A stretch of 64,000 bases of DNA from Amycolatopsis antarctica (GTDB lineage: Bacteria; Actinomycetota; Actinomycetes; Mycobacteriales; Pseudonocardiaceae): contig NZ_NKYE01000001.1 of the NCBI RefSeq assembly GCF_002262875.1, positions 248,001-312,000 of the forward strand, given 5' to 3'. A program made the position numbers and the translations under genes. Of the stretch, positions 25,640-52,114 are shown piece by piece. The notes below the pieces were generated by a model, which was not told the DNA's origin, made no database searches, and worked only from the letters and a program-made list of their open reading frames with translations. How positions within the stretch are numbered: position 1 is the stretch's first letter; each line of letters opens with the position of its first letter.

Positions 25640-25661
25640 AACGCGACACACGATGGACCTC

Positions 25662-25828: not shown

Positions 25829-25929
25829 GCGGTGGGTGCCGTCGCACCAAGACGAACGGGTTGGACGTGATCGAGGGGAGGCCCCCAACGAGGGGCCAGA
25901 AGGTCTGGGGCGGTCGAGGGGGCGGAAGG

Positions 25930-25967
25930 CCGGGTGGCGCGTTTAGCCCGCTAAACGCGCCACCCGG
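25930..25967. repeat. TTTAGC-type element with 18-bp arms (copy 10)
   Basis: Arms CCGGGTGGCGCGTTTAGC (25930-25947) and complement (25950-25967) flank a CC centre, 38 bp in all and perfect. It ends 10 bp before the mycP stop on the opposite strand, so it is placed like a bidirectional terminator. Confidence 0.85.
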
Positions 25968-25977
25968 AGGGCCTCGG

Positions 25978-27675: not shown

Positions 27676-27705
27676 GTGTCCCTCCGTATTCCGGGGCGTC
27701 ATCGG

Positions 27706-29100: not shown

Positions 29101-29324
29101 CTGCTTGCCCCCTACCTGGAGAGATTGCTGCGGGTACTTATACCGAACGCCGCGTGTCCATCATCGCCCGCCCGGTCCGCATCCCGGCCCGGCAGGTTCA
29201 CCGAACGGCCCCACGCGTTCCGCCGGCCGCCCTAGTATTAACGCACCGGACGCGACCGTGGGGTCACTTCCGGCCAACCGGTCGCGCCCGGGTGCGTCCG
29301 CGCCGGGCGGGGCCCGGTGTTCGC

Positions 29325-29330
29325 TACGGT
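29325..29330 (+). promoter_or_regulatory. Candidate -10 box for eccC
   Basis: TACGGT (TANNNT) lies 72 bp upstream of GTG 29402 in the divergent eccD-eccC gap (29101-29401). No -35 match is evident. The rest of the gap shows no gene. Confidence 0.35.
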
Positions 29331-29401
29331 GTGGGCCGGTCTCCGGCCGGGTCGTCCGTGCGGCTTGAATTGTCATTGCCGAGTTGAAGAGGGGTCTTTC
29401 G

Positions 29402-33427: not shown

Positions 33428-33480
33428 AGCCGCCACGCCCGGCATGCCCTCCGGGGGCGGGGTGACGGTGTGGTGGGACG

Positions 33481-33512
33481 CCGAGCGCGTTTAGCGGGCT
33501 AAATGCGCTCGG
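33481..33512. repeat. TTTAGC-type element with 15-bp arms (copy 11)
   Basis: CCGAGCGCG-TTTAGC-GG-GCTAAA-TGCGCTCGG: 15-bp arms with one G/T mismatch. It lies between eccC and the next gene on the same strand, so it may reduce read-through. Confidence 0.85.
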
Positions 33513-33586
33513 CGGGTGCGAGGCGTGCGGCGACGTCTGAGAGAGTGCCCGGTACGGAATTCGACGGTGATGGGTGGGAGCGGCTT

Positions 33587-35470: not shown

Positions 35471-35841
35471 CCTTCTCCGCCGCCCCGGGTTCCGCAAGTT
35501 CCGATTCCCTTTAGGAAATTCGCGCTCACACGTCTGTGCGTACCCTCACACGGGTGAGAATGCGCGAGCGGAAATGTTGGGCGAGCGGAGACCGGAGGCG
35601 AGCGACTGCCCTGCGCTACCTCGAGAAAACCCTTGGTGCGTAAGGGATTCGCCAGGTTGTCGCAGTGTTCCGGCGATCGGTGGCCGCAGGCTTCCAGCGC
35701 GGTTCCCACGGACGACATTTCCGCTAGCAACTACTTGTACGCAATCGGCGACATCGCGGAACCGAACATGGCAGGGTCGTCGTCGTAGGGCCAGTACAAA
35801 CGAAAAGCACTGGCAACCACGAGCGAAGGGGGTCACACCCA
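35471..35841. other. Gap before the WXG100 pair
   Basis: 371 bp without a supported gene and with lower GC than its surroundings. A purine-rich site (GAAGGGGG, about 35824-35831) serves the first WXG100 gene. No convincing -10/-35 pair or long inverted repeat was found. The separate transcription of the esx pair from the ATPase gene is therefore inferred only from the length of the gap. Confidence 0.5.
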
Positions 35842-36156
35842 ATGGCAGGCTTTCAGGGAACACCGGAAGACTTTGCGAAGGCCCACGGCGATGTGTCCGA
35901 CACCAAGGTGTCGATGGACCAGAACCTGCAGCAGCTCCGCAGCAACATCGAGGCCACGCAGGCCGGCTGGGACGGCGACGCCGCCCGCCTCTTCCAGAGC
36001 GTGATGGAGCGCTTCAACGAGAAGTCGTCGAAGCTGAACAACGCCCTGCAGGACATCGCCGATCTGCTGCAGTCCTCCGGTGTCCAGTACGACACCCAGG
36101 AGTCGAACGTCAACGACACCATCAGCAAGCTCGGCGCGACTCTCGACGGCAACTGA
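35842..36156 (+). CDS. WXG100 family secreted protein (EsxT/EsxU-type)
   Basis: A 104-residue helical-hairpin protein with the turn motif WDG (W-x-G) at about residues 46-48 (AGWDGDAARLF). The C-terminal secretion signal Y-x-x-x-E is YDTQE, about residues 84-88. These are the hallmarks of ESX substrates. It pairs with the next gene, probably as a heterodimer exported by the EccBCDE complex encoded upstream. Mycobacterial ESX-4 has esxU-esxT in the same position beside rplM. Confidence 0.93.
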   Translation: MAGFQGTPEDFAKAHGDVSDTKVSMDQNLQQLRSNIEATQAGWDGDAARLFQSVMERFNEKSSKLNNALQDIADLLQSSGVQYDTQESNVNDTISKLGATLDGN

Positions 36157-36208
36157 GCGGTCCTGAACTTCCCTACATCGCAGACTTCATCACCCAAGGA
36201 GGACAATC

Positions 36209-36496
36209 ATGCCGGGTGGCATCAAGGTTGATTACGCAACGATCCAGCAGGCGGCCGACGACTGCAACAGGACTGGCGGCGAGCTCGACGCGCTGTTCGA
36301 GCAGCTCAAGTCCCAGATGGCTCCGCTGACCAATGGCTGGACCGGTCCCGCCATGGAGGCGTGGGAGCAGAAGCAGATCGCCTGGAACCAGGCCCTGGAC
36401 GAGATGAAGCAGCTTCTCGCGCAGATCGCCACCGCCCTGCCGCAGATCGCGGACGGCTACCAGCAGACCGACAGCTCGATCCAGAAGATGTTCTGA
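36209..36496 (+). CDS. WXG100 family secreted protein, ESAT-6-like
   Basis: A 95-residue WXG100 protein: WTG at about residues 45-47 (NGWTGPAMEAWEQ) and the export signal Y-x-x-x-D as YQQTD (86-90) at the C-terminus. A strong AAGGAGG site (36197-36203) precedes ATG 36209, suggesting high expression. It lies 52 bp after its partner gene and is followed by a perfect terminator, so the two form a bicistronic unit. Confidence 0.93.
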   Translation: MPGGIKVDYATIQQAADDCNRTGGELDALFEQLKSQMAPLTNGWTGPAMEAWEQKQIAWNQALDEMKQLLAQIATALPQIADGYQQTDSSIQKMF

Positions 36497-36562: not shown

Positions 36563-37234
36563 CTATTTCGGCGCGCCGACCTCGAACTCGGGTTTGTCGT
36601 TCAGCACCCGGATGGCCACGTTCTTCGGCTGTCCGGCCACGTCGACCGTGCACTCGAACGTCGTGCCGTTGGCCACGGGCTGGTCGTCCGGGCACTGGGC
36701 GTTCTTCACGTCCTGCTCGCCGTAGTTGTCGCGCAGCACCGAGGTGACCCCGTCCTGCAGCGAGTTCTGGTCGAGAACCGGACCGCGAAACGCGCCCAGG
36801 AGCCAGGCCGCGACGACGCCGCCCACCAGAACGAGCCCCACGGCTCCGCCGACCAGCAGCGGCTTCTTCGACCGTTTCGGCTTCTGCTGCTCGCTCTCGC
36901 CGTAGGCGCCGAGCCCACCGTAGGACGAGGGCTGATAGCCACCCCCGTAACCGGCTTGCTGGTTCGGTTGCTGCGCGTACTGCTGTGGATAGGGCTGTCC
37001 GGCGCCTGGGGTCGCGGGCCACTGCTGCTGGGGCACCGGTTGTGACTGCGGACCCTGCTGATGCGGAGGTACCTGCTGGTGCGGAGGTATCTGCTGGTGC
37101 GGTGGTGCTTGGCGTTGCTGGTATCCCTGGGCCTGCTGGGGCGGGGGCGTCTGCTGTTGCCAGCCCTGCTGGCCTGCCTGGTCGTCGGCGGGCGGCTGCC
37201 ACCAGCCCTGCGGCGGGTTGGGCGGTTGGTTCAT
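36563..37234 (-). CDS. DUF4333-type membrane protein with Gln/Pro-rich N-terminus
   Basis: A 223-residue protein. Residues 1-118 are Gln/Pro/Gly-rich with repeats of PPHQQ (three in a row, I/V/G next). One membrane helix follows (about 126-148, LLVGGAVGLVLVGGVVAAWL). The rest is an extracellular domain with two Cys (NAQCPDDQPVANGTTFECTV) that fits DUF4333, common in actinobacterial envelope proteins. No function is known. It converges on the esx pair. Confidence 0.8.
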   Translation of the reverse strand: MNQPPNPPQGWWQPPADDQAGQQGWQQQTPPPQQAQGYQQRQAPPHQQIPPHQQVPPHQQGPQSQPVPQQQWPATPGAGQPYPQQYAQQPNQQAGYGGGYQPSSYGGLGAYGESEQQKPKRSKKPLLVGGAVGLVLVGGVVAAWLLGAFRGPVLDQNSLQDGVTSVLRDNYGEQDVKNAQCPDDQPVANGTTFECTVDVAGQPKNVAIRVLNDKPEFEVGAPK

Positions 37235-37273
37235 CGTGCGGGTACCTCGTCGGTCGGGTGGTGGCCAGTGCGG

Positions 37274-38155
37274 TCAGCGGTCTTGGATCTCGCCCATGCG
37301 GTCGTAGAAGTCGGCGACGGCTGCCTCGTCGGGGAGGTTCGTCACCTGTGATGGGTCCGGGATCTTGGGGAGGTCGTTCTCGGTCGGCGGTTCGAGGATC
37401 CGGTAGTTCATCCGTACTTCCACCTCGTGACCGTCACCCTTGATCAACCCTGTCATCTCAATGCTCCGCAGCTTGCCAAGGCCGTCGAGCACGATCTTGC
37501 TGGCGACCGGTTCCTGCTTCATCTCCTCGTTGACGTCGGTGAGGAGCCGTTCGGGGAACACGATCACTCTCTTGTCCAGGAATACGCCGAGGGGGATCTC
37601 GGCGAGTAGTTCGACGCTTCCGTCCGGCAGGCTCTTCGCCTGTTTCGCCGCCGCACCCTTGTCGACGGCCGCGGACACGGCGTCGAGCATCTTGCAGACG
37701 TCCTGGTAACCCTCCCAGAAACAGGCGTTGAGGGTTCCGCCGTCGTAGGGCATCGATACCCAGGGGGTCGGTGCGAGGCTGGAGTAGACGGGTCCCAGCA
37801 GGCCGTATTCGATTGGGCTGCCCGCCGGGTGGAAGAAGTCCAGGTACTCGTTGGAATCGCGTTTGGAATGGTTTTTCGCGAGGCGTGCCGGTGGGCGACC
37901 GACCTGTACGGCCTCGATCAACTGGTCGGATTTCTTGTCGTCGATGCGCCCGAACTTCTCGAGCGAACTCTTCCGCGCCTCGTTGCCGGTGAAGTCCTCG
38001 CCGAGGACCTTCAGCTTCTCCGCGAACTTCGCCGTGACGTAACTGGCAGCGTCGTCACCGTCGGGGATGGCGGTCGCCGTCTTCCCTTGTGCGCAAGATG
38101 AGAGGAGTAATGCTGTCAAACCCAATGCCAACAGCGTATATCGGCGTTTGTGCAT
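37274..38155 (-). CDS. Putative lipoprotein, paralogue of the next gene
   Basis: A 293-residue protein with a lipoprotein signal peptide and lipobox LLSSC (Cys21). The mature part begins AQGKTATAIPDGDDAASYVT and shares a long pattern with the neighbouring lipoprotein: IPDGD(D/E)A near the start, YGLLGPVYSSLAPTPWVS versus YIRLGPFYSSLAPTPWVS in the middle, and a closing I/LPDEAAV.DFYDR. No known domain is recognised. Anchoring outside the membrane beside the ESX-4 locus suggests an envelope role, but nothing more can be said. Confidence 0.8.
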   Translation of the reverse strand: MHKRRYTLLALGLTALLLSSCAQGKTATAIPDGDDAASYVTAKFAEKLKVLGEDFTGNEARKSSLEKFGRIDDKKSDQLIEAVQVGRPPARLAKNHSKRDSNEYLDFFHPAGSPIEYGLLGPVYSSLAPTPWVSMPYDGGTLNACFWEGYQDVCKMLDAVSAAVDKGAAAKQAKSLPDGSVELLAEIPLGVFLDKRVIVFPERLLTDVNEEMKQEPVASKIVLDGLGKLRSIEMTGLIKGDGHEVEVRMNYRILEPPTENDLPKIPDPSQVTNLPDEAAVADFYDRMGEIQDR

Positions 38156-38168
38156 GCCCAGTCCTCTG

Positions 38169-39068
38169 TTACTCGACGAGCTTCCCTCGTCGACTGTTGA
38201 AATCGTCGATCGCTGCCTGGTCGGGAAGTAGGGTCACTTGGTCTGCGGGTGGCGCTGCTGGTATCTCGTCTGCTCGTGGTGCGGCCAAAATCTGATAGTG
38301 GAACAAGAGTTCCATGGTAAACGGCTTATTCGACGTTGTGGTACCTGAAATGACACCCTCCAATCGTGCGTTCTGCAGTTGTGATTCAGGCGTCAAGACG
38401 ATGGTCGCTTCCAGGTGTTGCTCCAACGCTGCGGCGGGGAGTTTCTCGAAGTAGACCTCGTCATCTCCGAGTAGTCGGTTGCGTAAAAATGTTTCCAATG
38501 TGACTCCGACGTTGAGCACTGTCCCGCCGTCGGAGAGGCTCTTGGCTTCCATGTCGCCCCCCGTGGCTGTCGAAGCCCGAATCGACTTGATCATTCGGCA
38601 CTGAATGAGGTTCTCCGCAAGAGAGCAGGGGCCGATTCCCGGGTCCGGGTCAGCTCGAGAGACCCAAGGCGTCGGAGCCAGGCTGGAATAGAATGGGCCG
38701 AGGCGGATGTATTGAAGATCAGAACCGGGTGGTCTGAGGTATTCGAGATTGTCGTCTGGGTTCTCGTTGGACCGCTCGCGGCTGACGACGCCGATGGGAT
38801 CCCCCACCTGTGTGGTTGTCGTCTGCTGATCCAGTGTGATCTCGTTCACGCGCACACGTTGGTCGAGAACTGTCTTGCGTGGCGTGTTGGCGGTGAAGTC
38901 CGACTCAATGTTGTCCAGCGCTCCGCTGAACTTGGCTGACACGTGTTCGGAGGCCTCGTCGCCGTCCGGGAGGGCTGTGCCCGCTCGTGTATCCGCGCAC
39001 GCTGTCAGTGTCAGTCCGGCGCACGCCGCCAGCGTCATCAGCCGGATGCCCCTGCCACGCTTCGTCAC
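38169..39068 (-). CDS. Putative lipoprotein, paralogue of the preceding gene
   Basis: GTG 39068 is chosen because it has a purine-rich site and gives a normal signal peptide ending in the lipobox LTAC. Starting at 39113 would add 15 basic residues. The 299-residue product shares ALPDGDEASEHVSAKF and YSSLAPTPWVS with its paralogue, 13 bp away on the same strand. Its base composition is clearly lower in GC than the rest of the window, so it may be acquired or fast-evolving. Function unknown. Confidence 0.8.
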   Translation of the reverse strand: MTKRGRGIRLMTLAACAGLTLTACADTRAGTALPDGDEASEHVSAKFSGALDNIESDFTANTPRKTVLDQRVRVNEITLDQQTTTTQVGDPIGVVSRERSNENPDDNLEYLRPPGSDLQYIRLGPFYSSLAPTPWVSRADPDPGIGPCSLAENLIQCRMIKSIRASTATGGDMEAKSLSDGGTVLNVGVTLETFLRNRLLGDDEVYFEKLPAAALEQHLEATIVLTPESQLQNARLEGVISGTTTSNKPFTMELLFHYQILAAPRADEIPAAPPADQVTLLPDQAAIDDFNSRRGKLVE

Positions 39069-39256
39069 CCTCGTCCCCCCGGAGAGTCGTCGTCGCGGTC
39101 CGATGCCGCGCACCCTAGTATGGAGGTCAGCGGTACCCCCCGCTTTGACCCTCCGTCGAGCGTCCGGGTATCTTCAATCGCTGTTGTGCGCTGCGGCGCG
39201 TATACGCGCTAGGCCCGCACGGAACCCACACGCAATGTTGACGACGAGGTAGTCCC

Positions 39257-40510: not shown

Positions 40511-41845
40511 ATGGCTCGCCTGTTCGGTACGGACGGAGTGCGTGGCCTCGCCAACGCCGAGCTCACGCCGGAGCTCGCCATGTCACTGTCGGCGAGTGCC
40601 GCGCGCGTGCTGGCGGCGCACGACCGTTCCCACCGTCCCGTCGCTGTGGTGGGGCGTGATCCCCGGGCCAGCGGCGAGATGCTGGAGGCGGCCGTGGTGG
40701 CCGGCCTGGCGTCGGCGGGGGCGGACGTGCTGCGCGTCGGGGTGATCCCCACGCCCGGCGTCGCCCATCTCGTCAGCACGCTGGAAGCGGATCTCGGCGT
40801 GATGATCTCCGCTTCGCACAATCCCATGCCGGACAACGGCATCAAGCTTTTCGCCGGCGGTGGGCACAAGTTGCCGGACGGTCTCGAGGACGAGATCGAG
40901 GCGGGCCTGACGCCTCCGGCGACCCGTCCGACCGGTGCGGAGATCGGCCGGGTTTCCGATGTCGACGACGCTCTCGACCGGTACACCGCGCACCTGCTGG
41001 CCGTGACCCCGCATTCGCTGGCGGGGGTGCGCGTGGTCGTCGACTGTGCGAACGGCGCTGCCTCGTCGGCCGCTCCGGAGGTCTACCGCAAGGCCGGCGC
41101 CGAGGTGATCGCCATCCACGCCGATCCGGACGGGGTGAACATCAACTCGGACTGCGGTTCCACGCACATGGAGCAGGTGCGTGCGGCGGTCCTGGAGCAC
41201 GGCGCGGACCTGGGGATCGCTCACGACGGCGATGCCGACCGGTGTCTTGCCGTGGATGCCGCGGGTGAGCTGATCGACGGTGACCAGATCCTGGCCGTGC
41301 TGGCGCTGGCGATGGCGGAGGCCGGTGAGCTCACCAACGACACGCTGGTCGCGACCGTGATGAGCAACCTGGGCCTGCACCTGGCGATGCGTGAGCACGG
41401 CGTCGACCTCCGGACCACGGCGGTCGGTGACCGGTACGTGCTGGAGGAGTTGCGCGCCGGCGGGTTCTCCCTCGGTGGCGAGCAGTCGGGGCACGTCGTG
41501 CTGCCTGCGCACGCGACGACCGGTGACGGCCTGCTGACCGGGTTGCGCCTGATGAGCCGGATGGCGGCCACCGGACGTTCGCTCGCCGATCTGGCCGGGG
41601 TGATGCGCCGGTTGCCGCAGGTGCTGGTGAACGTCCGGGTCGCGGACAAGTCGGCGGTGGCGACCTCCGCGGCGGTCCGTGACGCCGTGGACGCGGTCGA
41701 GGCGGAGCTGGGCGCGGAGGGCCGGGTGCTGCTGCGCCCTTCGGGCACCGAGCAGCTCGTGCGCGTGATGGTGGAGGCGCCCGCGGAGGAGATAGCGCAG
41801 GCCGCTGCCGAACGTCTCGCGGGCGTCGTGTCCTCGGCCTCGTAG
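40511..41845 (+). CDS. glmM: Phosphoglucosamine mutase
   Basis: GlmM converts glucosamine-6-phosphate to glucosamine-1-phosphate on the way to UDP-GlcNAc for the cell wall. ATG 40511 (site GGAGGT) gives [20 protein letters not shown]. The phosphorylated catalytic serine is in [19 protein letters not shown] (about residue 101). The metal loop DGDADRC and the sugar-phosphate loop [13 protein letters not shown] near the C-terminus are intact. The frame is open upstream but not homologous. It works with glmS, 8.4 kb downstream; the cassette genes lie between them. Confidence 0.97.
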
Positions 41846-42077: not shown

Positions 42078-42398
42078 GTGCCAGAGGGCGGCTACACAGC
42101 CAGTTCGGACTCGATGGCGGCCGCGCAGGAGCGGTTGCGCCAGGCCGCCGAGGATCCTGCCGCCCAGGCCTCGCTCGTCGCACCGCCGAAGGTGACGCAG
42201 GAGCAGTTCGGCCGGGTGCACGGGGGGCACTTCGCCGCGTATTCGGCCGGTGTCGAGCAGGTGGGTGCCGCGTTGACGGGGTTGTCCGGGGAGCTGAACG
42301 CTCTCGGTGGCGGCATCGGCGCGGGCGGTCAGGCCTACGCCGAGCAGGAGGCCTCCACCTCGTCGGCCGTCGCGGCGCACGACCCGGGGACCGTGTGA
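42078..42398 (+). CDS. Small T7SS-substrate-like helical protein (cassette A)
   Basis: GTG 42078 (site GAAGGGGG) gives a 106-residue, Ala/Gly/Gln-rich, probably helical protein with no signal peptide. The centre reads FGRVHGGHFAAYSAGVEQVG and the end carries YAEQE, which fits the Y-x-x-x-E/D export signal. It lacks a WXG turn and looks more like the EspC-type or WXG100-like small partners. Its TGA overlaps the next ATG. Rv3440c, as I recall, holds the same position in M. tuberculosis. Confidence 0.7.
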   Translation: MPEGGYTASSDSMAAAQERLRQAAEDPAAQASLVAPPKVTQEQFGRVHGGHFAAYSAGVEQVGAALTGLSGELNALGGGIGAGGQAYAEQEASTSSAVAAHDPGTV

Positions 42399-45007
42399 TG
42401 GCCGAGCTCGGGCCGATGCTGGCCATGGTGCCGCCGGACAAGCGCGATCGGGTCAACGAGATCTTCGACAGCCCGTACGCCACCCCTGAACAGAAGCGCG
42501 AGGTCATGAAGGCCGCGTTGCCGCCGATGTTCGGTGGCGGGGATTTCGACGCGAAGTACGAGAGCGCGCGCAGCACCATCCAGCGCAGCTCGGCGAGCGA
42601 TCGGCGGGTGCAGGACGCGGCCGGCCAGTCCAAGCAGCAGTTGGACGCCATGCGCCCGCCCGCCCCGGGCGGTGCGGGCGTGACGGCGTCCGACGAGGTA
42701 CTGGACCTGGCGAAGCCCACGCTGGACTTCCTGTGTAGCTGGATCAACCAGGTGTGGAATCCGATGCCGGACTCGCCGGGCCAGATCGACTACATGGCCC
42801 GCATCTGGGATTCCTTCTACCGCAACGCCGGCATCGATTTCCGCAACTTCCTCGCTGACGCCGACGAGTTCGGCAAGGCGCACGGGATCGTCGAGACGAC
42901 GCTGGGCGACTGCCGCAATCACATGAACACCTTGTTCGGTGAGTGGACGGGTCCGGCGGCGACCGCGGCGAGCGTCAAGTTCAACGAGGCGATCCTGCCG
43001 GACGGTCAGGCGCTGCTCGACCATCTCAAGGGAGCGTCCGAGCTGGTCCCGGAGACCGTCACGGCTGTCTACGACACGGTCCGGGCCCAGGTCGACGAGG
43101 TCCTGCCGCTGTTCACGCCGACGATCGCGAACGCGACCCTGGCACAGGCCACCCGGGTCGTCGCCGTCGCCAAGGGCGAGTCGACCGAGACCGAGGACAT
43201 CGCCACCGTTTTCGCGGTCTTCGGCTCCGAGGTGTCACCGACGGAAGCGTCGTCGCTCGCGATCCTGCCTAATCTCCATTTCGATATCGCCATCGATTTT
43301 GCCAAGAACTGGGTATCCGCGTTCACCAACGAGTTCGCGGGCATCCTCGACGCCTTCGACACGCTGTGCGAACAGGCGGTCAAAGCCGTCGACGAAAAGT
43401 GGTTCGCCCTCGGCGAGTACATGAGCGGGTACGCGAACAAGTTCACCGAGAGCGCCGGTGCCCCGTCCGCGCCTGGACCCGCGCCGATGCCCGCCAGTGG
43501 CGGAACGGCGTCGCCACCAGGTGGTTCCGCCCCGTCCCCGGGCACCGGCGGTCCGCCGCCGGCGCCGTCCACCGCCGCTGGCGCTCCGTCGATGCCGGCA
43601 CCGCCCGCACCGCCGGAACCACCCGCCGCTGAACCCGCGGCCACGACCGAATCGGCCGCCGTCCCGGCACCCCCCGTACCTGAAACGGCTGCCGGGACGA
43701 ATCCGGTGGCCGGCGCGGAACTGGAGCGGGACCCGGAGACCGGCGAGGCGTTCGCGATCGACCCGGAGACGGGCGAGTCGGTACCGGACGCGGCGGCGGA
43801 GCAGGACGTCACGACCGTGCGCAGGGGGGACAACGAACTGTCCCTGACCGCGCCGGGACCGGACGGCCGGGGCGCGTTGTCCGTGCAGGGCGCCGACGGC
43901 GAGGCCCGCGAGTACATGCTCGACTTCGGTTCCGCCGACGCTCCCGTCCCTGATGGCGAGGCCCCTGATGGCGAGCAGGCCCAGGCCGGTTCGCAGGACG
44001 TGGCGGAGCCGGACGAGGCGGGACAGGACGGCCAGGACGACGGAACCGGTGCCGCGAACCGCACGGTGGTCACCCCCGGCGAGGACGGCGCGATCCGGAT
44101 CACCGACGGCGACCTGGAGATCGTCGCCGAGCGGCCGGACGGCCCGGACGGCCCGACGGTGGTGACCGTCGACGACGGCTCCGGCGAACCCACGACGTAC
44201 ACCCTCGGAGAGCAGGACACCGAAGCGCCGGACGCGGAGGCCCTCGCGCCGGGTGACGCCGGCGGGCTCGCCGACTCCCCGGAGGTGGCCGCCGCGCCGG
44301 TCACCGGCGAGACCGTGGGTGAACCCGCCACCGACGCGTCTTCCGGGATCGAGACCGACGATGCCGAGACCGGCGTACCGCTCGCCGGGGAAGCCGGGCA
44401 GCCGGAGTCGGTGACGCCCGCCGCCGAGACGGCCGCACTCGCCGGCGCCGAATCCGCCGAGACGCCTGTCGCCGCGACGGGGGCTCCGGAACCGCCCGCC
44501 GAGGCCGTGACCTCGCCTCCGGACAGCGCCGCGACATCGCCCGCGGAGAGCGTGCCGTCCGCCAACGGAGCGGTACCGGCCGATGTCGTAGACGCGCCGA
44601 GTTCCGGTTCCCTCCCACTCGACGACGCCGGTGCGGACTTCGCCGACGAGCCCGGGCAGCGCACGACGCCCTCGGCCGCGATCGGTAGCGGCGTGGACGG
44701 TGTCGCGGGCGAGGACGTCGATGCCCGCGAATCGGCTGCGGCCGGGTCCACGACGCCTGCCGACACCGGTGGTGCCCAGCTCGGCAGCGCCCCCGGCGGT
44801 GCGGAGGCCGCGACGGCAGGCGCCGGAGTGGGCGGCATGATGGGCGGCATGGGCGCCGCGGGTGGTGGCAACTCCGGTGACCAGGAACGTGGTTCCAGCC
44901 CGTGGCGTACCGGCGGCGACCTGTTCGACACGAGCGGTGTCGGTGGCCGGATCAGCGGTTCGCTCGACGACGGACCGGACCGTCCCGGCGCCTGGCTCGA
45001 CCGGTGA
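42398..45007 (+). CDS. Large WXG-containing protein with acidic tail (cassette A)
   Basis: An 869-residue protein without a signal peptide. Residues 1-350 are helical, with a WXG-like turn at 183-185 (LFGEWTGPAATAASVKFNEA). A Pro/Ala linker follows, then a segment shared with the cassette B protein: AGTNPV.G, DPETGEAFAIDPETGES, GPTVVTVDDGSGEPTTYTLG. A long Ala/Glu/Asp region leads to the C-terminal motif GGMMGGMGAAGG...DLFDTSGVGGRISGSLDD. The layout suggests a PPE-like or EspI-like type VII substrate or envelope protein. Function unknown. Confidence 0.75.
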   Translation: MAELGPMLAMVPPDKRDRVNEIFDSPYATPEQKREVMKAALPPMFGGGDFDAKYESARSTIQRSSASDRRVQDAAGQSKQQLDAMRPPAPGGAGVTASDEVLDLAKPTLDFLCSWINQVWNPMPDSPGQIDYMARIWDSFYRNAGIDFRNFLADADEFGKAHGIVETTLGDCRNHMNTLFGEWTGPAATAASVKFNEAILPDGQALLDHLKGASELVPETVTAVYDTVRAQVDEVLPLFTPTIANATLAQATRVVAVAKGESTETEDIATVFAVFGSEVSPTEASSLAILPNLHFDIAIDFAKNWVSAFTNEFAGILDAFDTLCEQAVKAVDEKWFALGEYMSGYANKFTESAGAPSAPGPAPMPASGGTASPPGGSAPSPGTGGPPPAPSTAAGAPSMPAPPAPPEPPAAEPAATTESAAVPAPPVPETAAGTNPVAGAELERDPETGEAFAIDPETGESVPDAAAEQDVTTVRRGDNELSLTAPGPDGRGALSVQGADGEAREYMLDFGSADAPVPDGEAPDGEQAQAGSQDVAEPDEAGQDGQDDGTGAANRTVVTPGEDGAIRITDGDLEIVAERPDGPDGPTVVTVDDGSGEPTTYTLGEQDTEAPDAEALAPGDAGGLADSPEVAAAPVTGETVGEPATDASSGIETDDAETGVPLAGEAGQPESVTPAAETAALAGAESAETPVAATGAPEPPAEAVTSPPDSAATSPAESVPSANGAVPADVVDAPSSGSLPLDDAGADFADEPGQRTTPSAAIGSGVDGVAGEDVDARESAAAGSTTPADTGGAQLGSAPGGAEAATAGAGVGGMMGGMGAAGGGNSGDQERGSSPWRTGGDLFDTSGVGGRISGSLDDGPDRPGAWLDR

Positions 45008-45035
45008 TCGCCTACCCGACGCCCAGGGGGTGCGC

Positions 45036-45485
45036 ATGAGTGCCGAAGGCAGGCTGGCCGCGGCGCGCGAGGCGCTCGCGGCCGTCTCCCGCGAGGAGCA
45101 CGAGCAACGCGGCCTGCGCGAGCGCCGCCTCGCCGAGGTGCGGGCGGCGACCGCGACCGGCCTCGAGGCGGACGCCCTCCGGGCCGCCGAGCGGATCGAG
45201 GAGGAGAAAGAGGTCCAGCGGCGCGCGGAGGCATCGGGCGGCTGGGTCACCGACAGCACGTACGCGAAGAAGGACGCCGAGGACTCGTTCGGCTTCGAGG
45301 AGGACGACGGTTCGGCCGAGGAGCCGCCACCTGCCGGGCCACCGTCCCCGTTCCCGCCGCCGTCCCCACACCCCGTGCACGACCCGCCCGCCGAGCCCGC
45401 CCCGGAGCGACCACAGGCGCGGCACGCACGCCGGGCAGCCGTGGACGACGAGGACTTCGCACACACCGACTGGACGGCGGACTGA
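45036..45485 (+). CDS. Small charged protein with RHARR tail (cassette A)
   Basis: A 149-residue soluble protein starting at ATG 45036, 28 bp after the large gene. The first 70 residues are a highly charged helix (AAVSREEHEQRGLRERRLAE), likely a coiled coil. The middle is Pro-rich, and the end reads RHARRAAVDDEDFAHTDW. The same closing pattern, RHARR-x2-DD-D-[FY]-x4-W, ends the cassette B homologue. It may be a chaperone or adaptor for the large protein; that is inferred from the repeated gene pairing only. Confidence 0.7.
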   Translation: MSAEGRLAAAREALAAVSREEHEQRGLRERRLAEVRAATATGLEADALRAAERIEEEKEVQRRAEASGGWVTDSTYAKKDAEDSFGFEEDDGSAEEPPPAGPPSPFPPPSPHPVHDPPAEPAPERPQARHARRAAVDDEDFAHTDWTAD

Positions 45486-45556
45486 CCGCCTGAGCAGGAC
45501 GTACCGCGTTCGCGTAGGTAAATCCCGGAGCCGGTGCGGGCAGGGTCCCCGCTGAG

Positions 45557-45562
45557 TACATT
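45557..45562 (+). promoter_or_regulatory. Candidate -10 box of cassette B
   Basis: TACATT followed by CAGT matches TACATTCCGT before cassette A in nine of ten positions. It lies 91 bp upstream of the first cassette B gene. Confidence 0.45.
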
Positions 45563-45652
45563 CAGTGTGCAGATGCGACGGCACCGAATCGCGTCCACCT
45601 GCGTCTGAAGGTGAACGTGACGATCCGAGCCTTCTCGACAGGGGGAGAACAC

Positions 45653-45964
45653 ATGCCGAATGGTGGTGGCCACAAGGCCGACCCGGGGCAGTTGAACGCG
45701 GGTGCCCAGGCGTTCAACCAGGAGGGCACCGAGTTGACTCAGGCCTCTGGCAAGCTCACCCCCAACGTCGCCGCCGGGCAGGTCGGCACGGCGTGGCAGG
45801 GCGTGGCAGAGCCGTACACCCAGGCGTTCACCAGGTTCAAGGACGGCACGGCGAAGTACGGCACCGCCGCCACCCAGTTCGGCGGGCAGCTCTCCAACGC
45901 GGCGAGCACGTACTCGACGAACGAGGAGAACCAGCAGCAGGCCATCAAGAACGCGGAGGGCTGA
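45653..45964 (+). CDS. WXG100 family protein (cassette B)
   Basis: ATG 45653, after an AGGGGGAGAA site, yields a 103-residue WXG100 protein. The turn motif is WQG (about residues 44-46, GTAWQGVAEPYTQAF), and the export signal Y-x-x-x-E is YSTNE near the C-terminus. An upstream in-frame start would add 14 residues and is less likely. It begins cassette B and is three bases from the large gene, so the two are surely co-expressed, probably as secretion partners. Confidence 0.85.
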   Translation: MPNGGGHKADPGQLNAGAQAFNQEGTELTQASGKLTPNVAAGQVGTAWQGVAEPYTQAFTRFKDGTAKYGTAATQFGGQLSNAASTYSTNEENQQQAIKNAEG

Positions 45965-45967
45965 TCG

Positions 45968-48652
45968 ATGGCCGAAGAAGTGAGCACCCAGGAACAGCGC
46001 GAACTCCTCGACGACCCGAACGTCTCGCCGGAGGTGAAGAAGCTCCTCCTCCGCGGTCTCGCCGCGGACGGCGCGCTCACCGACGAGGAGCAGTGGAACT
46101 ACGCGAACCAGCTCGGCATGCAGTTCGAGGCGATTTTCGGGGACCTCGAAAGCAACCCGCTCGGGCTGGGGATCCCGCAGCAGATGGCGCAGGCCGCCGC
46201 GCTCGAGGGACGTGAGCAGCAGCGGGCCGCGGAGACCTCGCAGGCCCTCGGCGACAGCTGGAACCGGCTCAACGAAGGCGGTTTCGCCAACTCCGACGAG
46301 ATCATCGACCAGGGTGACGTCGGCCTGAAGATCTTCGACGAATTCCATCCCCGCTACACCGAGGCGGGCGGCCAGGGCGGCGTCACCGGCGGCGACGCGC
46401 GGGGCGGCGGCGTCGACCCGGAGAGCCTGCGGGCGGCGACGGCCGAGTTCCGCGGTATCGACTTCACCGCGTTCCGGGCCGACGCCGAGCTGCTCACGCA
46501 GAACGGCAAGACCGTCACCGAGTCGTCCCAGCAGCTCGACCAGGCCTGGGGCACGCACATGTCCGGCTGGGAGGGTGCGGGCGCGACGGCGGCGAGCCAG
46601 TTCAAGGGCAAGCTCGACGGTGCGTCAGCCACGCTGGCGCAGTCGCTGGACGCGGCCCCGGGCGTCATCACCGAGGGCATCGCCGCGGTGGAGCAGCAGG
46701 TCGTCGACTTCGCGAAGCTGGTGCACAACCAGTGGGGCGACGGCCGGATCGCGGAGATGACCCCGTCCGACGTCGACGCCATGATCGAGGGCCGCAACGA
46801 GCTGCCCGGCGTGATCTCCGAGCTCGAGAACAAGATCCAGGAACTCAACGACCGGAACGCGCTGGAGAAGGGGCTCGACTTCCTCGGCAACATGGCCGCC
46901 GGGGCGCTCGGATTCCTGATCGGTGGCCCGATCGGCGCGATCGCCGCGGTCGCGGGGCTCAACTTCGCGAAAGAGATCACCGAGGACAACATCGAGGAGG
47001 AGTGCGCCAAGTACAAGCAGGCGCTCGCCGACTGCGAGGCGAAGCTGGAGCAGTTCGTCGGCGAGTACGAGGCGAAGGCCTCGTCCGTTCACGAACAGGC
47101 GCAGACCGCCAAGGACGGTGTGCAGCAGACCTACGACGCGATGATCGCCCAGCTCGGCAAGGAGCTGGAGCAGGATCCGTTCGCCGAGGTCGGTTCGCCT
47201 GACCTGCAGGGTGGCGACAAGGACGGTGGCAAGGACGGCGGTGGCCAGGACTCCGGCGGCGGCCAGGACTCCGGCGGGGGTCAGGATTCCGGTGGCGGTC
47301 AGGACAGCGGTGGCGGCGGCCAGGACTCCGGCGGTTCGGGCTCCGGATCCGGTTCGGGGGCGGGCGCGGGTTCCGGTTCCGGCGGAGCACCCAGCGGTGG
47401 CGGAGGCAGCGGTTCCGGCGCGGAGCCGCCGGCGGAGGCGGGGACGAACCCGGTGACCGGCAAGCCGCTGGAGGTCGACCCCGCCACCGGCGAGCCGTAC
47501 CCGATCGACCCGGAGACCGGCGAGGCCGTCAAGGACGGCAGGGACACGGTCACGGTCGAGAAGGGCGACAACAAGATCACCATGACCGAGCCGGACGAGA
47601 GCGGCGACATGGAGATCTCCGTCGACGACGGCTCGGGCGCGGCGAAGGACTACCAGCTCGACTTCGGTACCGGCGAGGACGACAAGCCGGGCGCGGAGGG
47701 CACCGACCTCGCGGCCGGCGACAAGCCCGGTGACCAGGTCTACCGCCCCGGCCCGGACGGCAAGATCCACATCGAGGACGGCAACCTCAAGATCACCGCC
47801 GAACAGCCGCAGGGACCGGAGGGCCCGACCGTGGTGACCGTGGACGACGGCACCGGCGAGCCGACCACGTACACGCTCGGCGAGGAGAAGCCCGCCGGTG
47901 GCGCGGAAAGCCTGATCGGACGCGGCGAGCGTCCGGAGAGCCTGGGCGGGCCGGCCGGGGAACGGATCGAGACGAAACCCGAACCCGCCGCCGCACCGGC
48001 TGCCGGCACGTCCGCCGGACCGGCGGGTGCCGGATTCGAGGCGCCCGGCGGGGTGGAGATCGGCGAATCGGCGCCGGCAGGTGGCGGTGGCGGAGGTGAC
48101 GCCGCGGGCGTGGCGACCGGCGAGGCCGCGATGCCTGCCGTGGACGGTGCTGCCGCCTCCGGTGTCGCTGTGGACGGTGCCGCTGTGGACGGTGGTGGCG
48201 GAGCCGGTGGTGCGGGCGATGGAACCGGTGGCGCCAGTACGTCACCGCAGGCCGTCTCCGGTGAGGTCGGTGCCGGGGTCGGAGCGTCCGCCGGTGGAGA
48301 GGTCGGCGCTGGTGCCGCCGCCACCGCGGAACCGCTCGGCATGGGAGCCCAGTCCGGATCCGCGGCACCGCAGCCGACCGCGGCGGGCGCCTCGCTGGGC
48401 GTCGCGCCCGGCTCGGACACCGCGGGTGCCGTAGCGTCCGGCGCTTCCGGCGCCGCCGGCGGCATGGGCGGCGGGATGATGGGCGGCATGGGCGCGATGG
48501 GTGGCGCGGGTGGCGGCCAGAACCAGGACGAGGAACGGACCGCCAGCAGGTACCGCGTCGACGGCGGCATCTTCGAGACCTCCGGCGCGGGCGGCCGGAT
48601 CAGCGGTTCACTCGACGACGACGCGGACCGCTCCGTCCGCTACGACCGTTGA
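45968..48652 (+). CDS. Large WXG-containing protein with Gly-rich tail (cassette B)
   Basis: An 894-residue paralogue of the cassette A protein. Residues 1-420 are helical with WEG at 201-203 (MSGWEGAGATAASQFKGKL) and a Gly/Ala hydrophobic stretch at about 300-335 (FLGNMAAGALGFLIGGPIG). Repeats of GGGQDSGGGQDS follow (about 425-455). Then comes the shared segment AGTNPVTGKPLEVDPATGE, IDPETGEAV, GPTVVTVDDGTGEPTTYTLG, and the shared C-terminus GGMMGGMGAMGG...GGIFETSGAGGRISGSLDD. No signal peptide. Likely exported through, or attached to, the ESX-4 apparatus; function unknown. Confidence 0.78.
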   Translation: MAEEVSTQEQRELLDDPNVSPEVKKLLLRGLAADGALTDEEQWNYANQLGMQFEAIFGDLESNPLGLGIPQQMAQAAALEGREQQRAAETSQALGDSWNRLNEGGFANSDEIIDQGDVGLKIFDEFHPRYTEAGGQGGVTGGDARGGGVDPESLRAATAEFRGIDFTAFRADAELLTQNGKTVTESSQQLDQAWGTHMSGWEGAGATAASQFKGKLDGASATLAQSLDAAPGVITEGIAAVEQQVVDFAKLVHNQWGDGRIAEMTPSDVDAMIEGRNELPGVISELENKIQELNDRNALEKGLDFLGNMAAGALGFLIGGPIGAIAAVAGLNFAKEITEDNIEEECAKYKQALADCEAKLEQFVGEYEAKASSVHEQAQTAKDGVQQTYDAMIAQLGKELEQDPFAEVGSPDLQGGDKDGGKDGGGQDSGGGQDSGGGQDSGGGQDSGGGGQDSGGSGSGSGSGAGAGSGSGGAPSGGGGSGSGAEPPAEAGTNPVTGKPLEVDPATGEPYPIDPETGEAVKDGRDTVTVEKGDNKITMTEPDESGDMEISVDDGSGAAKDYQLDFGTGEDDKPGAEGTDLAAGDKPGDQVYRPGPDGKIHIEDGNLKITAEQPQGPEGPTVVTVDDGTGEPTTYTLGEEKPAGGAESLIGRGERPESLGGPAGERIETKPEPAAAPAAGTSAGPAGAGFEAPGGVEIGESAPAGGGGGGDAAGVATGEAAMPAVDGAAASGVAVDGAAVDGGGGAGGAGDGTGGASTSPQAVSGEVGAGVGASAGGEVGAGAAATAEPLGMGAQSGSAAPQPTAAGASLGVAPGSDTAGAVASGASGAAGGMGGGMMGGMGAMGGAGGGQNQDEERTASRYRVDGGIFETSGAGGRISGSLDDDADRSVRYDR

Positions 48653-48674
48653 CCAGCGGCGGGGAGGGCAGACG

Positions 48675-49127
48675 ATGAGCAACGTTGATCCGCGGGTGAA
48701 GGACACCTTCGCCACGATTGTCGCCGGCACCAGGGCGAAGGCCGCCGAGATCACCGACCGCGTCACCGCGAAGCAGCGGGAGAACGCCGACGCGTCGCAG
48801 CGAATGCGCGAGGCGAACGAGAAACTGACCAAGCAGCTCGACGAGCGGGCGCGCGGAAACGCCGAGCGCAACGCCGACCCACACGCGAACGACGAGTGGC
48901 GCAAACCGGTGAAGTCGCGATCGACGACGTTCTCGTTCGGACCGGCGGAGGAGCAGACCGAGGCCGCGGGCGAACAGCCGGTGGCCGCCGAGCCGGAGCG
49001 GCCCGCTGCCGAGCGGGCCGTGCCGGAGACGACCGAGCCTGAGGCCACGCCGCGGCCGTCCGGCAGGCACGCGCGCCGGGACGAGTTCGATGACGACGAC
49101 TACTCCAACAACAGCTGGATGAAGTAG
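48675..49127 (+). CDS. Small charged protein with RHARR tail (cassette B)
   Basis: A 150-residue paralogue of the 45036 product. The N-terminal 70 residues form a charged helix (ITDRVTAKQRENADASQRMR, EKLTKQLDERARGNAERNAD). A Glu/Pro/Ala-rich linker leads to the closing motif RHARRDEFDDDDYSNNSW. ATG 48675 follows a GGGAGGG site, 22 bp after the large gene. It ends 18 bp from a convergent hydrolase gene and closes cassette B. Confidence 0.72.
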   Translation: MSNVDPRVKDTFATIVAGTRAKAAEITDRVTAKQRENADASQRMREANEKLTKQLDERARGNAERNADPHANDEWRKPVKSRSTTFSFGPAEEQTEAAGEQPVAAEPERPAAERAVPETTEPEATPRPSGRHARRDEFDDDDYSNNSWMK

Positions 49128-49145: not shown

Positions 49146-49967
49146 TCAGACGTCGGCGTGCTTCTCCGCGGGCGGCAGCGTCGCGGCCTTGAGGTCGGCC
49201 TCCAGCAGCGGGCGGTATGCGTCCGTCCTGGTCAGGTGCGTCAGGAAGAACGCGGTGAACAGCGCCCGGGTGACGCGCTGCGTCCGGTGGTGTGGCTTGC
49301 CGTGCAGGACGAGCTGGCTCCAGTGCTTGCCTTCGGTGACGCCGAGGTGTGTCGACTTGCCGATCGTGCGGAACTGAACGTCCTCGTCACCCCAGGCATG
49401 AGTCATCGCCTCGGAGTTGCCCAGTGCCGGGGCCACCAGGTCCTCTTCGGCGGCCAGGTGCAGCCCGGGAACGTGCACGTCGCGCGCGGCCTCGGTGGCC
49501 GGCGGCATCGTCTGCGCGGCGGCGATCGTCGCCACGGCACGGATCTTGGGCCGGTCCGCCTTGTCCGCCGCGGCGAGCACTGCGGCGCCGCCACCGATGG
49601 AGTGCCCGGCGACGCCCAGCTTCCCCGGATCGACGCTGATGCCGTCGGCGCCCAGCCGTACGCCGGTGACGATGTCGAGCGAGGTGCGCAGGTCGGAGGC
49701 GAACAGCCGGTGCGAAGGCAGCGGGCCGCTCTGGGTGGCGGGGGCCGCCGCGACGATGCCCCAGCTCGCCAGGTGCCGCAGCAGCTCGCGGTAGCGCGTC
49801 GGCGGCTGGAGCCAGCCGTGGCCGAACGCGATCGCCGGCAGGTTGAGTCCGGCGCTGGGGGTGAACACGACGCCGGGGAGGCCGACGAGCGCGAGGTTGC
49901 CGTGCAGCACCTCGTGCGGGCCGGGATGGGACAGCTCGTCGAGTATCTGCTTGGGCTTCGCCGCCAT
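49146..49967 (-). CDS. Alpha/beta hydrolase (dienelactone hydrolase-like)
   Basis: The 273-residue protein has the nucleophile elbow GHSIGGGAAVLAAADKAD (Ser in GHSIG) and an oxyanion-type GHGWLQPP. An Asp/Glu in AAEEDLVAP and a His in KSTHLGVTEGKH may complete the triad. ATG 49967 is chosen: TACGCT lies six bases upstream, consistent with a leaderless mRNA, and the upstream 21 codons are not conserved-looking. M. tuberculosis Rv3438 occupies the same place between the glmM and glmS genes (recalled). The substrate is unknown. Confidence 0.85.
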   Translation of the reverse strand: MAAKPKQILDELSHPGPHEVLHGNLALVGLPGVVFTPSAGLNLPAIAFGHGWLQPPTRYRELLRHLASWGIVAAAPATQSGPLPSHRLFASDLRTSLDIVTGVRLGADGISVDPGKLGVAGHSIGGGAAVLAAADKADRPKIRAVATIAAAQTMPPATEAARDVHVPGLHLAAEEDLVAPALGNSEAMTHAWGDEDVQFRTIGKSTHLGVTEGKHWSQLVLHGKPHHRTQRVTRALFTAFFLTHLTRTDAYRPLLEADLKAATLPPAEKHADV

Positions 49968-49973
49968 GGCGCG

Positions 49974-49979
49974 AGCGTA
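49974..49979 (-). promoter_or_regulatory. Candidate leaderless -10 box for the hydrolase gene
   Basis: TACGCT on the minus strand ends six bases before ATG 49967, so transcription would start at or next to the start codon. There is no Shine-Dalgarno sequence. Confidence 0.45.
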
Positions 49980-50090
49980 GCCGAGGCGGGCCATGCCGGC
50001 CGACCGGCCATAACAGCCAGCCCCATCCACGCAACGTCACCTTAACCGCTTGATCGGTGACCCTCTGTGCTTATCGGTACCTCTCCGGCG

Positions 50091-50244: not shown

Positions 50245-50251
50245 GGTGGGC

Positions 50252-52114
50252 GTGTGCGGAATCGTGGGATATGTGGGTCACCGGCAGGCACTCGACGTCG
50301 TGCTGGGCGGTCTGCGTCGGATGGAATACCGGGGTTACGACTCGGCGGGTGTCGCGGTGCTCGACGGCACGGGCGGCCTGCACGTCGAACGCAAGGCGGG
50401 TCGCCTGGCCAACCTCGAGGCGGAACTGGAGACCTCCGACGGGGGCGTGCGCAACGGCACCGCCGGCATGGGGCACACCCGCTGGGCGACCCACGGTCCG
50501 CCGGTTGACCGCAACTCCCACCCGCACCGGGACGCCACCCAGCGGGTGGCCGTGGTGCACAACGGCATCATCGAGAACTTCACCGCGTTGCGTTCCGAGC
50601 TGGAGGCCGACGGCGTCGAGCTGACCAGCGACACCGACACCGAAGCCGCCGCGCATCTGGTGGCCCGTGCCTACGCGGCGGGTGAGACGGCCGGGGACCT
50701 CGCGGCGAGTGTCCGTGTGGTGTGCCGCAGGCTGGAGGGCGCGTTCACGCTCGTGGTGACGCACGCCGACGTGCCGGACACGATCGTCGCGGCCCGCCGT
50801 TCGTCCCCGCTGGTGGTCGGTGTCGGCGAGGGGGAGACCTTCGTGGCCTCGGACGTGGCCGCGTTCATCGAGCACACCCGTGAAGCCGTGGAGCTCGGCC
50901 AGGACCAGCTCGTGGTGATCACCCGCGAGGGCTACGAGGTGACGGATTTCGCGGGTGAGCCCGCCCAGGCGAAGCCGTTCACCGTGGACTGGGATCTGTC
51001 GGCCGCCGAGAAGGGCGGCCACGAGTACTTCATGCTCAAGGAGATCGAGGAGCAGCCGGAGGCGCTGGCCAACACCTTGCGCGGGCACTTCGCCGGTGGC
51101 CGCATCATTCTCGACGAGCAGCGCATCTCCGATCAGGACCTGCGCGATGTGGACAAGGTCTTCGTCGTCGCCTGCGGTTCGGCTTACCACTCGGGCCTGG
51201 TGGCGAAGTACGCGATCGAGCACTGGTGCCGTCTGCCGGTCGAGGTGGAGCTGGCCAGCGAGTTCCGTTACCGCGATCCGGTGCTGGACCGTGCGACGCT
51301 GGTGGTCGCGGTGTCCCAGTCCGGCGAGACGGCGGACACGCTCGAAGCGGTTCGCCATGCCCGGGAGCAGAAGGCGCGCGTGCTGGCCGTGTGCAACACC
51401 AACGGCGCGCAGATCCCCCGCGAGTCGGACGCCGTGCTGTACACCCACGCGGGCCCGGAGATCGGTGTCGCGTCGACGAAGGCGTTCCTGGCGCAGATCG
51501 CCGCCAACTACCTGGTGGGCCTGGCCCTTGCGCAGGCGCGTGGCACGAAGTACCCGGACGAGGTGGCGCGCGAGTTCGCCGAACTGGAGGCCACGCCGGC
51601 GGCTGTCCAAAAAGTACTGTCCACTGTGGAGCAGGTGCGGGATCTCGGGCGGCGCATCGCCGATTCGAAGGCGGTGCTGTTCCTCGGCCGCCATGTCGGG
51701 TTCCCGGTGGCGCTGGAGGGCGCGCTCAAGCTCAAGGAGCTCGCCTACATGCATGCCGAGGGTTTCGCGGCGGGTGAGCTCAAGCACGGGCCGATCGCGC
51801 TGATCGAGGAGGGTCTGCCCGTCGTCGTGGTGATGCCCTCGCCGAAGGGGCGTGCGGTACTGCACTCGAAGCTGGTGTCGAACATCAGTGAGATCCAGGC
51901 GCGTGGCGCGCGGACCATCGTGATCGCCGAGGAGGGGGACGAGACGGTGCGCCCGTTCGCTGACGAGCTCGTCGAGATTCCCGCGATGCCGACTCTGCTG
52001 CAGCCGCTCGTGTCGACGGTGCCGTTGCAGGTGCTGGCCGCCGAGATCGCGAAGACGCGTGGGTACGACGTGGACAAGCCGCGCAACCTGGCCAAGTCCG
52101 TGACGGTGGAGTGA
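50252..52114 (+). CDS. glmS: Glucosamine-fructose-6-phosphate aminotransferase
   Basis: GlmS makes glucosamine-6-phosphate from fructose-6-phosphate and glutamine, the first step to UDP-GlcNAc. GTG 50252 is required because it places Cys directly after the initiator Met (CGIVGYVG), giving the N-terminal nucleophile of the glutaminase domain; GTG 50246 would not. The 620 residues hold the glutaminase half (GHTRWATHG) and two SIS domains (VACGSAYHSGLVAKYAIEHW, KLKELAYMHAEGFAAGELKH), ending DKPRNLAKSVTVE. A TCCACTGTGGA palindrome lies at 51620. Confidence 0.97.
   Translation: MCGIVGYVGHRQALDVVLGGLRRMEYRGYDSAGVAVLDGTGGLHVERKAGRLANLEAELETSDGGVRNGTAGMGHTRWATHGPPVDRNSHPHRDATQRVAVVHNGIIENFTALRSELEADGVELTSDTDTEAAAHLVARAYAAGETAGDLAASVRVVCRRLEGAFTLVVTHADVPDTIVAARRSSPLVVGVGEGETFVASDVAAFIEHTREAVELGQDQLVVITREGYEVTDFAGEPAQAKPFTVDWDLSAAEKGGHEYFMLKEIEEQPEALANTLRGHFAGGRIILDEQRISDQDLRDVDKVFVVACGSAYHSGLVAKYAIEHWCRLPVEVELASEFRYRDPVLDRATLVVAVSQSGETADTLEAVRHAREQKARVLAVCNTNGAQIPRESDAVLYTHAGPEIGVASTKAFLAQIAANYLVGLALAQARGTKYPDEVAREFAELEATPAAVQKVLSTVEQVRDLGRRIADSKAVLFLGRHVGFPVALEGALKLKELAYMHAEGFAAGELKHGPIALIEEGLPVVVVMPSPKGRAVLHSKLVSNISEIQARGARTIVIAEEGDETVRPFADELVEIPAMPTLLQPLVSTVPLQVLAAEIAKTRGYDVDKPRNLAKSVTVE
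51620..51630. repeat. TCCACTGTGGA palindrome in glmS
   Basis: One of six exact TCCAC(A/T)GTGGA copies. The others are at 17933, 17946, 52492, 57681 and 63350; single-mismatch forms are at 54945 and 63854. Here it uses TCC-ACT-GTG-GAG, with the rare ACT codon. Confidence 0.6.

Follow-up and report, generated by a model that had tools for sequence, protein, structure and literature searches.

The interval between glmM and glmS of Amycolatopsis antarctica, which lies within the 64,000-nucleotide stretch of DNA analyzed here (the window), holds two tandem cassettes of three plus-strand genes, A-B-C, at positions 42078–45485 and 45653–49127. We propose that each cassette specifies a type VII secretion substrate pair, A and B, together with an accessory protein, C, and put the probability of this reading at roughly two in three; the pairing, the export and its machine, the role of C and any entry into the membrane are what we infer from the sequences. 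A is a protein of ~100 residues with a YxxxE motif, B a protein of ~880 residues that has a single WxG turn and, toward the C terminus, a conserved β-repeat domain, and C a small protein with an acidic and aromatic tail. The order and coordinates of the cassettes had been given in an initial annotation of this DNA and were borne out; its phrase “between glmM and glmS” holds for both cassettes, but not as the complete content of the interval, which also includes a minus-strand α/β hydrolase gene. The features are:

42078–42398, plus strand: A1, 106 residues, GTG start; YxxxE present as YAEQE at residues 87–91, no WxG
42398–45007, plus strand: B1, 869 residues; N-domain (1–342 modeled), WxG at residue 183, Pro/Ala-rich linker, β-repeat domain, conserved tail
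43694–44221, plus strand: β-repeat domain of B1, of group bA, typical of glmM-proximal cassettes
45036–45485, plus strand: C1, 149 residues, charged start, tail ...DDEDFAHTDWTAD
45653–45964, plus strand: A2, 103 residues, WXG100-like; WxG at residue 48, YxxxE present as YSTNE at residues 87–91
45968–48652, plus strand: B2, 894 residues; N-domain, WxG at residue 201, hydrophobic Gly-rich stretch at ~310–331, Gly-rich linker, β-repeat domain, conserved tail
47366–47893, plus strand: β-repeat domain of B2, of group bB; two related repeats with four predicted strands each
48675–49127, plus strand: C2, 150 residues, tail ...DDDDYSNNSWMK
40511–41845, plus strand: glmM, left border of the interval; a longer open reading frame begins at 40379
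50273–52114, plus strand: glmS, right border of the interval; a longer open reading frame begins at 50246
49146–50030, minus strand: α/β hydrolase, PET hydrolase-like, between C2 and glmS and called in many related intervals too

The make-up of the cassettes resembles that of type VII substrates, which supports the secretion module suggested at the outset. A YxxxD/E motif is found within the last 40 residues of 109 of 117 A proteins, A1 and A2 included (mean 15.7 and maximum 28 in 200 shuffle runs), and the WxG turn is kept in 116 of 122 B proteins; because YxxxD/E is conserved on A and WxG on B, the two proteins probably form a type VII substrate pair that is exported. The turns at residues 183 and 201 of the large proteins were recovered as first described, and so was YxxxE in the small leading proteins, although it lies near their ends rather than at them. 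The term WXG protein applies to B1, B2 and A2, but not to A1, for which Pfam and NCBIfam searches returned nothing at E ≤ 1. A2 passes PF06013 in Pfam (28.3 bits, cut-off 27.3), and B1 matches TIGR03930 in NCBIfam (E 8e-6), under the cut-off; B1 and B2 both score below the WXG100 cut-offs. The predicted structure of the B1 N-domain (residues 1–342) has a predicted local distance difference test score (pLDDT) of 91.7.

Comparable units are known from mycobacterial ESX-1, where, in the excerpted text of PMC6107294, EspA/EspC/EspD and EspE/EspF/EspH each consist of a small YxxxD/E partner, a larger WxG partner and a third protein that stabilizes the pair. A-B-C likewise combines a small YxxxD/E partner, a larger WxG partner and a third protein, and one A relative (locus L082) weakly matches PF10824, the EspC family (20.9 bits, cut-off 23.5), which a small protein at the same place in a genome of family f8 passes. 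The cassettes differ from the Esp trios in that A1 and A2 have no PF10824 match at E ≤ 1, C is not YbaB-like by Pfam, B has a β-repeat domain and exceeds 1100 residues in some relatives, and the gene order is A-B-C at a place linked to ESX-4, not ESX-1. The split of the motifs, YxxxD/E on A and WxG on B, is also that of PE/PPE pairs such as PE25-PPE41, but the gathering score of PF00823 (PPE) is not reached by A2 (18.7 bits against 26), and A1, B1 and B2 have no match to it at E ≤ 1.

The two cassettes are related to each other, unevenly along their length. The segments quoted earlier as common to the two large proteins are present in B1 and B2, whose C-terminal domains share 47% identity (E 4e-37) and whose N-terminal WXG stretches share ~30% (E 0.002; score reached by none of 1000 shuffles). 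C1 and C2 are related by the same measure (0/1000 shuffles), and A1 and A2 are weakly alike (8/1000). The description of the pair as a duplicated module was nevertheless not borne out, and we reject a recent tandem duplication: the N-domains of B1 and B2 fall in separate clades, and the array is genus- and family-wide, with no recent local duplication. This N-domain tree comprises 120 proteins (139 B proteins, 122 after removal of repeats, less two short ones; loci L200–L218 lie outside the trees) and was built by a quick method with Shimodaira–Hasegawa-like approximate likelihood ratio (SH-aLRT) support only, no bootstrap, and with long branches flagged, B1 among them. B1 groups with the first-place cassettes of L062 and L136 (SH-aLRT 99) inside a superclade of 74 rows (98), and B2 lies in a separate clade of 13 rows (100) that includes A. 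taiwanensis, A. acidicola, A. xylanica, Saccharomonospora, Prauserella and the first-place cassette of A. arida. Eight of these 13 carry a hydrophobic stretch of mean hydropathy 1.56–2.09 (1.96 at residues 313–331 of B2, against 1.09 for B1); outside the clade, only the first B of L136, a member of the B1 subclade, exceeds 1.5 (1.65). Of the locus rows available, 78 of 112 and 59 of 105 entered the structure alignments, to each of which the two window rows were added; eight loci fell outside the first list of the hydropathy analysis.

The β-repeat domains give a conflicting tree. They form two groups, bA and bB (support 88), and that of B2 is nearest to the second cassette of A. arida (pair support 92; 82% identity over the last 120 residues), whose N-domain belongs to another clade. 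The groups follow position: in complete two-cassette arrays, bA is found in 19 of 20 first-place and bB in 19 of 19 second-place cassettes, the window rows included. The exceptions are the first-place cassettes of L174, L162 and L169, which are bB; the arrays of L162 and L169 are truncated in the sequence retrieved and were counted apart. Tails of C proteins are of a TDW type in 21 of the 25 bA rows with a C, and NSW-like in 73 of 74 bB rows, with the caveat that the classes were set after viewing the tails, that NSW-like is the default class, that the rows are non-independent and that C1 and C2 stand outside the counts. The window conforms, C1 ending in DFAHTDWTAD and C2 in DYSNNSWMK. The tree conflict and the tails by place thus suggest that the 3′ half of a cassette (β-repeat domain and C) mostly follows its place in the array and that the 5′ half (A and the N-domain) has been exchanged. 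We read these patterns as two insulated B-C pairings, the putative recombination being drawn from one moderately supported split. Presence of the β-repeat domain was flagged by a permissive pattern, by which the first B of L110 counts as lacking it, although its domain is aligned in the β-domain tree. Since N-domains, β-repeat domains and C tails fall into distinct types, the earlier suggestion that the diverged paralogues may form different complexes gains support.

The position of the array is likewise conserved. A profile of the C-terminal domain of B (profile label A2) matches 195 of 249 Pseudonocardiaceae genomes, in 39 of 46 genera; an order-wide sample of 249 genomes gave 39 positives, all from the family, with 190 of the negatives unlisted as to family. 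In A. antarctica itself (6.3 Mb, 64 contigs) the only β-repeat matches are the two in the window. A scan of named genomes led, through the best 80 of 112 relatives, to 74 loci, mostly from Amycolatopsis and Prauserella and further from Saccharomonospora, Qaidamihabitans, Thermocrispum, Actinophytocola and metagenome-assembled genomes. Gene labels derive from a gene finder of our own and from BLAST against the proteins of the window and the loci, and some genes may have been missed. The place beside EsxT-EsxU-RplM-RpsI-GlmM is kept in all 19 loci from 13 other genera that were chosen by their B-domain match: the cassettes, with one to three B genes per locus, lie downstream of EsxT-EsxU-RplM-RpsI and adjoin GlmM. 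The array can cross glmM, as in L216 (genome G067), where one B gene and a small partner lie between rpsI and glmM and two more follow glmM. Simple scans of the window for sigma-70 promoters and terminators found no promoter and one terminator-like site, no excess over shuffles.

Outside the family, GlmM was used to fetch 19 loci representing 12 further families within the order, and a clear A-B-like pair between glmM and glmS was found only in L222, from family f8, where a 93-residue EspC-family protein (35.0 bits, cut-off 23.5) accompanies a 428-residue WXG protein. In a second f8 locus, L232, GlmM is followed by small genes and a fragment that weakly matches B (E 0.007), and GlmS is uncalled in the sequence retrieved. 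We take f8 to be probably Mycobacteriaceae and the L222 pair to be probably Rv3440c-Rv3439c. The earlier statement that mycobacteria carry this pair in the equivalent place is therefore upheld as to an EspC-family/WXG pair there in L222, less clearly in L232, the identity of the pair being presumed. The likeness to the window is partial: the C gene is uncalled in L222, there is a single pair and no β-domain match, and the large protein resembles the B profile only over 81 residues around WxG (hhalign E 1.5e-4, probability 52%). In L081 (8442–17595; G036, family f2), a long type VII secretion system (T7SS) locus has a 104-residue and a 786-residue WXG gene after an EsxU-like gene; by eye the 786-residue protein contains two β repeats like those of the window, and the C-terminal profile has no match in that genome.

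A T7SS locus lies upstream of the cassettes:

22340–36496, no single strand: T7SS locus read as ESX-4, with EccE (minus), EccB, MycP (minus), EccD (minus), EccC, an Hsp70/T7SS_Rv3446c protein and two WXG100 proteins

EccB, EccC, EccD, EccE, MycP and T7SS_Rv3446c all score above NCBIfam cut-offs and the two WXG100 proteins exceed that of TIGR03930; the apparatus announced at the outset is there as a complete EccE-EccB-MycP-EccD-EccC locus. Its name, ESX-4, and those of the two small WXG100 proteins, EsxT and EsxU, we take from the gene order. Judged by position, ESX-4 is the likeliest export machine for the cassettes, but one candidate among several, because the genome holds four full-length EccC matches, three of them besides that of ESX-4 (on contigs C8, C64 and C11); in the other T7SS loci of the genome (L240–L242) no gene was labeled A, B or C.

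Relatives of the first cassette often have acyl-ACP enzyme genes as neighbors. In many related intervals, an AMP ligase and an acyl carrier protein (ACP; PP-binding in Pfam) precede the glmS-near cassette. The ligase passes Pfam AMP-binding, and its best NCBIfam matches, under the cut-offs, are the fatty-acid/fatty acyl-AMP ligase (FAAL) and FadD32 models (E 1e-127 or lower). An ACP, a FabF-like ketosynthase and a further protein resembling ketosynthases instead come after the cassette in A. arida, several Prauserella, Qaidamihabitans and two loci from another genus, g53; the Cys and His motifs of the ketosynthase are kept in 8 of 8, and the Cys motif is missing from its partner in 9 of 9, as in a chain-length factor. 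A FAAL-ACP pair between two cassettes was assigned to the following one, because stand-alone FAAL-ACP-A-B-C units exist and no such enzyme is called in any of 15 intervals with one cassette that belong to clades II and III. On this basis, FAAL/ACP accompanies 28 of 33 B genes in clade I (which contains B1) and 29 of 30 in clade V, and an ACP follows C in 10 of 10 in clade IV, with the ketosynthase pair called in eight (L174 has the ACP only, and L132 is without the ketosynthase on a short contig). Acyl-ACP enzymes are found in 0 of 12 in clade II (which contains B2) and 0 of 22 in clade III. In all, 67 of 73 B genes of the B1-related clades adjoin an ACP and a FAAL-like ligase or (mostly) a ketosynthase pair, against 0 of 34 in clades II and III. 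The FAAL and ACP genes mostly overlap (median spacing −11 nt, 67 pairs), and no more than 250 nt separate the ACP from A in 66 of 67, some genomes being counted twice. In L176 (3701–7762), FAAL and ACP are fused into one 627-residue protein directly before A-B-C; just upstream of the fusion lie genes for a 516-residue protein and a 206-residue partner that by eye resemble a T7SS effector pair. The second B genes of L064, L068 and L069, in clade I, encode 448–543 residues, without the β-repeat domain or an adjoining FAAL-ACP. Enzyme presence changes state at least four times on the tree.

In A. antarctica the corresponding enzymes were not found: the FAAL-type ACP has no match in its genome (found in 21 of 21 genomes of the genus that were searched), nor has the chain-length factor (found in 4 of 4 control genomes). 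A search with the ketosynthase-type ACP gave one match of 36% identity (E 8e-7), which we read as a housekeeping protein; all 11 genomes searched give matches, weak ones alike. FAAL-like matches elsewhere in the genome reach 42% identity over most of the query, some on contig C5; the two FAAL-like loci retrieved (L238 and L239) have biosynthetic, nonribosomal peptide synthetase-like surroundings without A-B-C.

In the mechanism that we favor, A and B would be made as a coupled pair: A, with its YxxxE, and the WxG-bearing N-domain of B would fold together in the manner of EspC/EspA or PE/PPE, and an EccC ATPase, with that of the adjacent ESX-4 locus as the likeliest, would recognize the pair through the motif on A. 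The long flexible linker of B may bring its β-repeat domain and conserved tail to the envelope or outside, and C, which is positioned as the chaperone EspD is next to EspA/EspC, probably acts in the cytosol as a partner that is matched to the C-terminal half of B and helps B. The two cassettes would represent two old, insulated types: the N-domain of cassette 1 belongs to a lineage mostly with a dedicated acyl-ACP supply in relatives, not found in the genome of the window, and that of cassette 2, with its hydrophobic insert, may enter the membrane. In enzyme-bearing relatives, the substrate probably accepts or carries the acyl chain of the private ACP; in A. antarctica the pair would persist without acyl supply or receive the chain from general fatty acid synthesis.

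Whether the cassettes are exported at all, and as what, can be read in two further ways. B could be a type VII-delivered antibacterial toxin with exchangeable parts and C its immunity protein, in a polymorphic effector array; the array form, the exchange of 5′ and 3′ halves, the small gene directly after B and the hydrophobic Gly-rich insert of many B2-clade members would all suit this. The C-terminal domain is, however, conserved rather than hypervariable, as its identity between B2 and A. arida and its presence across the family attest, the C tails are conserved too, and the Pfam and NCBIfam matches at E ≤ 1 include no toxin family and, for B, no LXG Pfam domain; we consider such an array quite improbable. 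The fixed place between glmM and glmS, together with that same insert and the low-complexity linkers, could be expected of an envelope scaffold that is never secreted, with B spanning from cytosol or membrane to the wall close to the supply of cell-wall amino sugars. Against this speak the split of YxxxD/E and WxG between A and B and the units of clade V in stretches without glmM or glmS, of which 20 of 21 have FAAL/ACP and which show that linkage to the glm genes is not required; a scaffold strikes us as about as improbable as the toxin array.

Within the substrate-pair reading, the acyl-ACP genes can be taken in opposite ways. A-B-C could be a lipid-handling type VII unit, in which an acyl chain from a private ACP (FAAL or ketosynthase pair) is passed to A-B, covalently or as cargo, before or during export, the β-repeat domain and its matched C forming two parallel, non-mixing channels; A. 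antarctica would apparently have lost the supply, having cassette 2 with its membrane-entering N-domain instead. We offer this tentatively, as a possibility that we rather doubt. Acyl use on the substrate is its weakest step, because no acyltransferase was recognized beside the cassettes. As in the HlyC-type activation of RTX toxins by acyl-ACP, a secreted protein would be encoded beside an acyl-ACP source, here only in relatives of the window cassettes; the RTX case differs in its secretion route and in its acyltransferase, and acylation here is a hypothesis from genes. Alternatively, the enzymes may be hitchhikers with no function in export, as the absence of their genes from clade II and III cassettes, from the window pair and from the three shortened clade I relatives, the repeated changes of state on the tree and the lone ACP of L174 might indicate. 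Their near-complete restriction by clade, the involvement of two unrelated kinds of acyl supply, the tight spacing from FAAL through ACP to A and the persistence of the intact unit at other chromosomal places make hitchhiking, in our view, unlikely. If functional, the link of the superclade to two unrelated kinds of acyl-ACP enzyme would connect type VII export with a lipid step.

ESX-4 and type VII substrate pairs have been described before; new here are the acyl-ACP neighbors of B1-related cassettes. Neither these nor the array and its two-type order were found in the literature searched, including the excerpted texts of PMC11217815, PMC4791881, PMC11791044 and PMC11004387, and no paper linking acyl-ACP systems to type VII export was found in the open literature. 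A search for Rv3439c with ESX-4 returned nothing, and one for glmM, ESX-4 and Rv3440c a single review. One to four ESX-4 clusters per genome occur in Pseudonocardiales and other orders according to the excerpt of PMC4791881, in which the words glmM, EspC and Amycolatopsis are absent, and ESX-4 substrates beyond EsxU/EsxT are still to be identified according to work on abscessus (excerpt of PMC11791044). The cassette arrays that adjoin ESX-4 across many genera of the family offer concrete candidate ESX-4 substrates, as EspC/EspA-like coupled pairs, from soil bacteria that are harmless.

Several further genes accompany the secretion loci. The ESX-4 locus of the window encodes, at 33587–35470, a protein that joins an Hsp70 ATPase part to a C-terminal T7SS_Rv3446c domain, and similar genes occur in many loci of the family. 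Inside its ESX-4 locus, L094 (9245–10644; G025, Amycolatopsis) has between eccB and mycP a small gene for 105 residues and one for a short, B-like WXG protein of 361 residues, no such pair being called in that gap of the window. On the minus strand between esxU and rplM (36563–39113) lie genes for two putative, related lipoproteins of 293 and 314 residues and for a DUF4333 protein; many Amycolatopsis loci have such genes in this position, the lipoprotein being present in one to three copies. Beside another T7SS of A. antarctica (L242, 14232–15607, contig C11), neighboring proteins of 215 and 232 residues share a long acidic segment, ...NWDHDDNVTDYQIDENGITDEVNG..., and are possibly a duplicated substrate.

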